Source: Thermopolyspora flexuosa
GTDB lineage: Bacteria; Actinomycetota; Actinomycetes; Streptosporangiales; Streptosporangiaceae
DNA length: 64,000 nucleotides
Direction: 5' to 3'
Assembly: GCF_006716785.1 (NCBI RefSeq)
Contig: NZ_VFPQ01000001.1
Span: 4,030,001 to 4,094,000 of the forward strand
The position numbers and the translations under genes were made by a program. The notes below the pieces were generated by a model. It ran no database searches. It was not told the DNA's origin and saw only the letters and a list, made by a program, of their open reading frames with translations. Shown piece by piece: positions 43,089 to 44,060 of this stretch (position 1 is the first letter of the stretch; every line of letters begins with the position of its first letter).

Positions 43089-43796
43089 TCAGCAGACCAG
43101 AGGCATCACGGCGGCCGGACCGGCGGTCACGGTGCGCCCTGTGGTGCGCTGGTAGCGCCGGACGAGGTCGGCGAGGCGGGATCGGCGGCCAAGGCGGCGG
43201 TCGAGGCGCAGCACCACGTTCCGGCGCGGCGGCGGGAAGGCCGCGGCGAGGGCGGCGAGCACCGTCTCCGGTTCCGCGCCCGCCCGGTTGAGCACCCACG
43301 CCGTGCCGGCGTCGAAGGCGACGAGCGCGAGGGCCAGATGTTCCCGGCGGTGCCACCGCTCGCGGCGGGCGAGGGCCAGCCGCAGCGAGGCCTCGTAGGC
43401 CGCCTGGGCGTCCAGGCCGATCGGGGGGTTCATCCGGGCGCAGCGGCGACGCGCCCTGGCCGCGCCGAGCGGCAGCAGCGGTTCCCGCGCGGGCGGCCGG
43501 TCGAGCAGCGCCGTACCGGCCTCGCCCAGCATCCGGTCGAGGTCGACACCGAGCCTGGCGAGCATCTCCCGGTCGGCCGCCGCCCCGGCGTCGGCGGGCT
43601 CGGCGGCGCGGGCCGCCGCGCGGATCGCGTCCTCGGTGGCGCCGTGCGCGCCCAGCAGCTCCGCGACGGTACCGCCGCCCACGGCGAGCGCGAGCAGCAG
43701 ATGCTCGGCGCCCACCCTCGGGTGCCCGAGGTCGCGGGCGAGCACCCACGCCCGCCCGATCGTCCGGCTCAGGTCGGGATCGTCACCGCGGAACAT
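43089..43796 (-). CDS. Clp-N (ClpA/C N-domain) protein without ATPase
   Basis: A 235-residue protein made of two Clp N-terminal repeats. The first is about 8-75, with ARDLGHPRVGAEHLLLALAVGGG. The second is about 125-195, with ASLRLALARRERWHRREHLALALVAF. The AAA+ modules of ClpC are absent. Free Clp-N proteins are common in actinomycetes and may bind adaptors or damaged proteins. Its ATG overlaps the stop of the HTH gene by one base (TGATG), so both are made together. The C-terminal 50 residues are very basic. Confidence 0.83.
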   Translation of the reverse strand: MFRGDDPDLSRTIGRAWVLARDLGHPRVGAEHLLLALAVGGGTVAELLGAHGATEDAIRAAARAAEPADAGAAADREMLARLGVDLDRMLGEAGTALLDRPPAREPLLPLGAARARRRCARMNPPIGLDAQAAYEASLRLALARRERWHRREHLALALVAFDAGTAWVLNRAGAEPETVLAALAAAFPPPRRNVVLRLDRRLGRRSRLADLVRRYQRTTGRTVTAGPAAVMPLVC

Positions 43797-44014
43797 CAGC
43801 CCTCCAGGAGACGGTGGTACTTGCGGTGCACGGTCTGCTTGGTGACCCCGAGCCGGACCGCGATGTCCCGCCAGGACCAGCCCGCCCGGCGCGCCGCCGC
43901 GACGCGCTCGGCCTCCAGCCTCTCCACGAGACGACGCAGCCTCGCGACCGCGCGCAGTCCGGCGTCGAGATCATCCCCGTGCAGCGCCTGTTCGAGATCG
44001 GCGTTCACGGACAT
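43796..44014 (-). CDS. Small helix-turn-helix protein (72 aa)
   Basis: A 72-residue DNA-binding protein with a predicted amphipathic N-terminal helix (LRRLVERLEAERVAAARRAG) and a sigma-region-4/homeodomain-like HTH, WRDIAVRLGVTKQTVHRKYH. The start is the ATG at 44014. No SD is visible; a perfect palindrome begins 3 bp upstream, so the message may be leaderless or the operator may overlap the start. With the Clp-N gene it forms a two-gene operon probably regulated by itself. Confidence 0.85.
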   Translation of the reverse strand: MSVNADLEQALHGDDLDAGLRAVARLRRLVERLEAERVAAARRAGWSWRDIAVRLGVTKQTVHRKYHRLLEG

Positions 44015-44017
44015 GGC

Positions 44018-44033
44018 GTCAGCATATGCTGAC
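44018..44033. promoter_or_regulatory. Palindromic operator 1 of the HTH/Clp-N operon
   Basis: GTCAGCATATGCTGAC, a perfect 16-bp palindrome directly before the HTH start codon. Confidence 0.7.
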
Positions 44034-44044
44034 GACTCGAGGCC

Positions 44045-44060
44045 GTCAACATATGCTGAC
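44045..44060. promoter_or_regulatory. Palindromic operator 2 of the HTH/Clp-N operon
   Basis: GTCAACATATGCTGAC, the same sequence with one change, 27 bp away centre to centre, about 2.6 helical turns. Confidence 0.68.

Follow-up and report, generated by a model that had tools for sequence, protein, structure and literature searches.

Mycobacterial ClpC2 is a single chain that represses its own gene through sites of the form CGTCAAC-n5-GTTGACG, as demonstrated by EMSA, reporter, and knockout experiments in the available sections of Taylor 2023 (PMC10030653). According to these sections, the transcript is probably leaderless and its putative -35 and -10 elements are overlapped by the tandem palindromes; repression is lifted when the Clp-N part of the protein binds cyclomarin A, and the derepressed ClpC2 serves as a sponge that protects ClpC1; heat induces ClpC2 about 2-fold. 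They assign the DNA contact to R185 and R189 of the Clp-N part, report that ClpC1 binds DNA with little specificity, and present crystals of residues 4-72 and 94-252, and the terms “helix-turn-helix” and “HTH” are absent from the paper.

An HTH region in ClpC2 is nevertheless already in print: the available part of a 2026 report (PMC13284704) notes HHpred similarity between it and the antitoxin RelI (Rv2664, PDB 9SDC). The HTH region of RelI contacts the RNase toxin RelS, which is encoded before RelI, and the authors found neither evidence of DNA binding by RelI nor inverted repeats. The literature that we searched for split HTH/Clp-N pairs yielded no paper on them, and either the ClpC2 HTH or the nature of ClpC3 may have been covered before by Hoi 2023 (Cell).

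A coupled HTH/Clp-N gene pair downstream of tandem operators

The window, by which we mean the whole 64-kb stretch of DNA analyzed here, contains a putative HTH repressor gene (P0001) followed by a Clp-N gene (P0002), and their features are collected in Table 1. An initial annotation had described two palindromes spaced 27 bp centre to centre, the nearer one 3 bp from the ATG of a 72-residue HTH gene without a Shine-Dalgarno sequence, and TGATG coupling to a gene for a Clp-N protein without an ATPase. All of these features are present in the sequence, the last being borne out by a Pfam search as well. To them we can add that the Clp-N gene does carry a Shine-Dalgarno sequence, and that the two genes have one base in common.

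Table 1. Positions of the gene pair and its control elements in the window
Feature	Position	Strand	Basis
HTH repressor gene P0001 (putative), 72 aa	43796..44014	-	Open reading frame and family search
Clp-N gene P0002, 235 aa, without ATPase	43089..43796	-	Pfam Clp_N, 8.2e-11
TGATG stop/start overlap coupling the HTH and Clp-N genes	43794..43798	-	Sequence
Shine-Dalgarno GGAGGG of the Clp-N gene	43800..43805	-	Sequence
Thr61 codon, predicted recognition helix, tracks operator bases 5-6	43832..43834	-	Covariation
Arg64 codon, predicted recognition helix, tracks operator bases 5-6	43823..43825	-	Covariation
Proximal operator (putative) GTCAGCATATGCTGAC, perfect palindrome	44018..44033	.	Pattern search
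Distal operator (putative) GTCAGCATATGTTGAC (minus strand), one asymmetric base	44045..44060	.	Pattern search
-35 element TTGACG, inside and at the edge of the distal operator	44044..44049	-	Sequence
-10 element TATGCT, inside the proximal operator	44021..44026	-	Sequence
ATG of the HTH gene, predicted leaderless transcription start	44012..44014	-	6 nt after the -10 element

The two 16-bp palindromes stand apart from their surroundings. At up to 3 mismatches, the pattern GTCARCATATGCTGAC has four strand-matches in the window, all at these two sites, where 0.24 would be expected, and none of 100 shuffles of the window reached four. When the window’s own genome was searched at up to 2 mismatches, the only other places found were three sites with 2 mismatches, and a reversed-pattern control gave 2 per strand. 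The window holds no further GTCA-N8-TGAC or GTCA-N9-TGAC site on either strand, the motif being self-complementary so that one strand covers both.

The candidate promoter hexamers are 17 bp apart, and the single asymmetric base of the distal operator is such that TTGAC is kept as a -35 element. Since the -10 element ends 6 nt before the ATG of the HTH gene, transcription is predicted to begin at the A of this codon, and the HTH mRNA is probably leaderless. The initial annotation suggested that the start may be blocked by the bound protein; the promoter is a better candidate than the start for the blocked element, because both hexamers lie inside the operators.

An AlphaFold2 model of P0001 (mean pLDDT, 88.7) has helices at residues 3-12, 16-43, 48-55, and 59-71, the last of which is the predicted recognition helix. 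Comparisons of this model with known folds were uninformative: Foldseek against the PDB returned no match at E ≤ 0.001, VIA-align placed Fis on top with values in a range common for unrelated models (Z 5.3, rmsd 5.2, 64 residues aligned), and neither 8ADA nor 9SDC was among the matches listed. The HTH family profile aligns with a profile of the ClpC2 N-domain over 47 columns (hhalign 98.1%, E 1.2e-13) and matches PDB 8ADA (Rv2667) at E 3.7e-5, in an alignment that runs to the final residue of 8ADA, 72, and ends immediately ahead of the recognition helix.

Conservation of the layout and the proposed mechanism

A profile search of the class gave matches at E ≤ 1e-9 in 216 of 393 genomes, and a search of 60 relatives, the window’s own genome included, gave matches at E ≤ 0.001 in 49. 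Eight loci were added from named genomes, including Saccharothrix, Lentzea, Hamadaea, Nocardiopsis, and Gordonia. Counting loci with identical HTH DNA once, 202 hits came down to 194 HTH loci with more than 35 bits, and all counts of split loci given in this and the following sections are among the matches listed in these searches. A separate Clp-N gene lies downstream on the same strand in 177 of the 194, and HTH-Clp-N fusions number 0 in these 177. Tandem GTCA-N8-TGAC sites were found at 158 of the 194 loci (a single site at 18, none at 18); for the 177 loci with a Clp-N gene, the corresponding numbers are 149 tandem, 16 single, and 12 without a strict site. The palindrome is thus conserved before orthologues, whose lack of it the initial annotation had named as grounds for rejecting its proposal.

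The promoter is conserved along with the operators. Among the 158 tandem loci listed, the sites are spaced 27 bp (80 loci), 28 bp (70), or 29 bp (8) from centre to centre, TTGAC occupies the equivalent -35 place in 153, TAnnnT the -10 place in 138, and the start codon falls 6 or 7 nt past the -10 element in 152. Sequences resembling a Shine-Dalgarno element precede the HTH start at 2 of these 158 loci and the Clp-N start at 142 of 153 loci. Taken from sequence, the identity of the operators, their overlap with the promoter, the leaderless layout, and the conservation of all of these are well supported, and the two-gene module is real and conserved. Three proposals of the initial annotation gain sequence support from this, namely that the palindromes are operators of the HTH protein, that the start is leaderless, and that the pair is autorepressed; we regard it as probably self-repressing.

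Among the loci with Clp-N, the 12 that have no strict site were inspected by eye. Eight carry altered tandem sites, of the AGCAAC..GTTGAC / GTCAAC..GTTGCT kind, L194 and L199 have one altered site, and L144 and L177 are degenerate. A branch of the HTH family (L186, L192-L194, L197-L199, and L203) has changed outer operator letters (AGCAAC..GTTGAC), and it would extend any recognition code. Another branch (L204, L206, L211, and L212) occurs without Clp-N and without these operators.

We propose, with a probability of roughly 0.7 for the mechanism as a whole, ligand release and sponge included, that the window pair is a two-gene sensor-repressor of the ClpC2 type. The HTH protein would dimerize through its long second helix and bind both palindromes, which would hold the -35 and -10 elements of the pair’s own leaderless promoter, such that both genes are repressed. 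The Clp-N protein, as a copy of the substrate- and drug-binding domain of ClpC1 without the motor, would associate with the HTH protein. Its capture of a ligand, which might be a natural product directed at Clp or a signal of protein damage, would release the repressor, both genes would be made, and the extra Clp-N protein may act as a sponge that spares ClpC1. We infer ligand release and the sponge function of the split pair by analogy, and the initial annotation’s suggestion that the Clp-N protein is a sensor that releases the repressor, with unfolded protein or Clp occupancy as the putative signal, likewise draws its support from the analogy with fused ClpC2, for which the available sections of PMC10030653 demonstrate cyclomarin A as the signal.

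The HTH protein could instead be a plain autorepressor, with the Clp-N protein merely coexpressed as a sponge or ClpC1 adaptor and having no part in the control of DNA binding. In the model, the HTH protein has a full set of dimerization and recognition helices, which suggests that Clp-N would not be needed for specificity. However, the two genes are adjacent at nearly all of the listed loci, as counted above, and in the fused ClpC2 described in the available text of Taylor 2023 (PMC10030653) both parts belong to one chain in which a ligand on the Clp-N part lifts repression. We therefore consider a plain autorepressor unlikely and favor the sensor-repressor.

Recognition of the operator

We compared operator bases 5-6 with 212 alignment columns (45 from the HTH protein and 167 from the Clp-N protein) in the 149 of 194 listed loci at which a tandem pair and a Clp-N gene are both present. 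When information is taken per unit entropy, HTH residue 61 comes out on top, followed by HTH residue 64; in raw mutual information, residue 64 leads, followed by a Clp-N column and then residue 61. Arg64 occurs with GC at operator bases 5-6 at 22 of 24 listed loci and Lys64 with AC at 76 of 99, and where residue 64 is Thr, Gln, Ala, or Tyr, the operator leans toward other letters. The 21 listed loci that share Thr61 and Arg64 always have GTCAGC as both left half-sites; their distal right half is GTTGAC in 19, ATTGAC in 1, and GCTGAC in 1, and their proximal right half is GCTGAC in 17 and GTTGAC in 4. Arg64 changes just 4 times on a Clp-N tree of 144 of the 149 loci, and an independent-pairs sign test had 3-4 pairs, too few for significance, so we do not claim a proven recognition code. 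From these patterns, we infer that the HTH protein reads the operator. That the operator letters appear to track two recognition-helix residues, through few independent changes, is apparently new.

An alternative reading extends the R185/R189 proposal of Taylor for ClpC2 to the split pairs: the Clp-N domain would read the operator and the HTH would merely dimerize. Its support is that ClpC2 binds DNA less well when R185A/R189A is introduced into the Clp-N part and that clpC2 mRNA rises about 2-fold in the equivalent double mutant (PMC10030653, available sections). In the split systems, however, the HTH is a separate protein, and it is the recognition helix of this protein that tracks the operator. 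Among the matches listed, 80 of 145 split Clp-N proteins have Ala at the position equivalent to R189, where 34 of 37 fused ones have Arg; the residue equivalent to R185 is Arg in 120 of the 145 listed split proteins and also in ClpC1, the low-specificity binder. The predicted recognition helix of ClpC2 is, moreover, part of neither published crystal. Together, these points make reading by the Clp-N domain very improbable.

This last point follows from numbering. L216, a fused protein of the mycobacterial type, has the two residues of the published dimer pair, D46 and R57, at exactly these positions. Its numbering therefore matches that of ClpC2, and its recognition helix, TKQAAQKRF, occupies residues 73-81, between the crystallized segments. 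This suggests that the DNA-reading part of ClpC2 has been overlooked. A recognition helix in ClpC2 residues 73-81, absent from both crystals, is apparently new as a proposal: in the literature searched, as far as its text was available, we did not find a statement that an HTH in the crystal gap is the operator reader.

Scans that began from the operators rather than the genes led back to the HTH family. All 8 tandem sites of the window type in 386 genomes are at HTH hits, and the reversed-pattern control gave 0 in these genomes. Tandem sites of the general kind number 27 in the 60 relatives. Of these, 21 are directly before an HTH gene; the other 6 coincide with no HTH hit and precede DUF998, ABC-exporter, hydrolase, or beta-lactamase-like genes. 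The DUF998 membrane-protein genes at L294 and L295 start 4 nt past tandem 16-bp operators of the same kind and are possible further targets of the HTH repressor family, judged by their sites. The notion that the palindromes belong to another regulator, with the HTH and Clp-N genes among its targets, could draw on these 6 sites, but it is highly implausible given that the other 21, and all 8 of the window type, lie directly before an HTH gene and that the operator letters track the recognition helix of its product.

The operators of split and fused systems also differ in spacing. We tried 39 fused ClpC2-type loci and kept 37 (one lacked the searched motif, and repeats of one locus were counted once); GTCA-N9-TGAC is present at 35 of these, 33 of which have two or more sites, and GTCA-N8-TGAC is present at 0 of 37. 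Within the 150 bp scanned, N8 sites, that is, a spacer of 4, occur at 176 of the 194 split loci among the matches listed, and spacers of 2, 3, 5, or 6 occur at 0 of 194. The difference is clean in this sample, and a constant 1-bp difference in the spacer, 4 bp in split and 5 bp in fused systems, is apparently a new feature of these sequences.

The Clp-N protein and other copies in the same genome

P0002 has two Clp-N repeats, a longer inter-repeat segment, and a C-terminal helix. It was modeled with moderate confidence (mean pLDDT, 74.5, from five sequences); its best PDB fold match is the ClpC1 N-domain 8ibp (E 1e-5), and the ClpC2 C-domain is also among the fold matches listed. For the inter-repeat segment, we set aside a strict motif (105 of 149) as too narrow and used aligned length, taken as the number of aligned residues between ClpC1 positions 31 and 106. 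By this measure, split Clp-N proteins have a median of 118, with at least 100 in 133 of 145 among the matches listed, fused ClpC2 a median of 75, with at least 100 in 1 of 37, and ClpC1 75. Our guess is that the longer segment docks the HTH protein.

The pocket of P0002 is also changed. P0002 keeps F2, E31, E89, and E106 of ClpC1, and it has G, D, I, G, and D at R4, T6, F80, T81, and R83. Of the cyclomarin-contact set F2, F80, and E89 (ClpC1 numbering), it thus retains F2 and E89 and has Ile for F80. In other ClpC proteins, R4, T6, and two Glu residues serve phospho-arginine. Given that several ClpC1 pocket residues are lost, a cyclomarin-like ligand is doubtful, and the ligand of P0002 probably differs from cyclomarin.

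The same genome holds a second split pair (L214), with its HTH near contig 1 position 417.5 kb, sites GTCAACCAGGGTTGAC / GGCAACTTAGGTTGAC, and a Clp-N protein with a ClpC1-like pocket. The ClpC2 N-domain profile found no fused ClpC2 in this genome, its matches being just the two split HTH genes and one at E = 0.98. At L215 (contig 1, about 3070490-3071300), a CcdA-like ribbon-helix-helix is fused to two Clp-N repeats (Pfam). Like the split pair, L215 joins a DNA-binding domain to two Clp-N repeats, but its DNA-binding fold is unrelated, and there is no GTCA-N8/9-TGAC site in the 2.7 kb examined near it. Its domain content makes L215 a further arrangement, independent of the first, in which a DNA-binding domain is linked to a Clp-N sensor. 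A tandem operator-like pair also occurs at L299 (contig 1, 3585800-3585842), between what we take to be a DrrA-like ABC transporter gene, after the pair, and a MarR-type gene on the other side; it could equally be a MarR site.

Wider implications

A broader and more tentative reading, which we think somewhat doubtful, is that actinomycetes run several insulated Clp-N sensor-repressors per cell. Insulation would come from a two-part operator code, one part being the half-site letters, read by residues 61 and 64, and the other a 1-bp difference in spacer, with 4 bp in split pairs and 5 bp in fused ClpC2, that may keep the two kinds apart. Each sensor might then watch a different Clp-directed toxin or class of stress, and the window type, with its altered pocket, might answer a new ligand. 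The inter-repeat segment, roughly 43 residues longer in split pairs, would be their HTH dock.

ClpC1 is a tuberculosis drug target, and one class of drugs against it is made less effective by ClpC2 through a self-induced sponge. The two-gene form would make this logic widespread in actinomycetes, many of which are natural-product producers. Altered pockets in new Clp-N types may be a lead to Clp-directed natural products that are still to be discovered. In ClpC2, the part that probably reads DNA would become a helix missing from both published crystals, and the split pairs provide naturally occurring repressor/operator combinations that are possibly orthogonal.

Comparison with known systems

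The window HTH is in the same small HTH family as RelI, but its adjoining, translationally coupled partner is a Clp-N protein and not a RelS toxin. P0002 is predicted to share the fold of the ClpC1 N-terminal domain; unlike ClpC1, it lacks AAA+ modules, and it has the extra inter-repeat segment and the C-terminal helix. The closest studied relative of the window pair is ClpC2 (Rv2667). Both have a homologous N-terminal dimerizing HTH domain (Rv2667 4-72), Clp-N repeats without an AAA+ ATPase, and tandem GTCA..TGAC palindromes over the -35 and -10 elements, with the start codon at the predicted +1 of a probably leaderless mRNA; autorepression, probable for the window pair, is a further shared trait. 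They differ in that a stop codon separates HTH from Clp-N in the window while ClpC2 is one chain, in that the window operator has a 4-bp spacer and that of ClpC2 (GTCAAC-N5-GTTGAC) a 5-bp spacer, and in that the inter-repeat segment of ClpC2 is as in ClpC1. ClpC2 also keeps the cyclomarin pocket, its ligand being cyclomarin A, unlike the window protein. On these sequence features, we class the window pair as a split relative of ClpC2 and not as ClpC2 proper.
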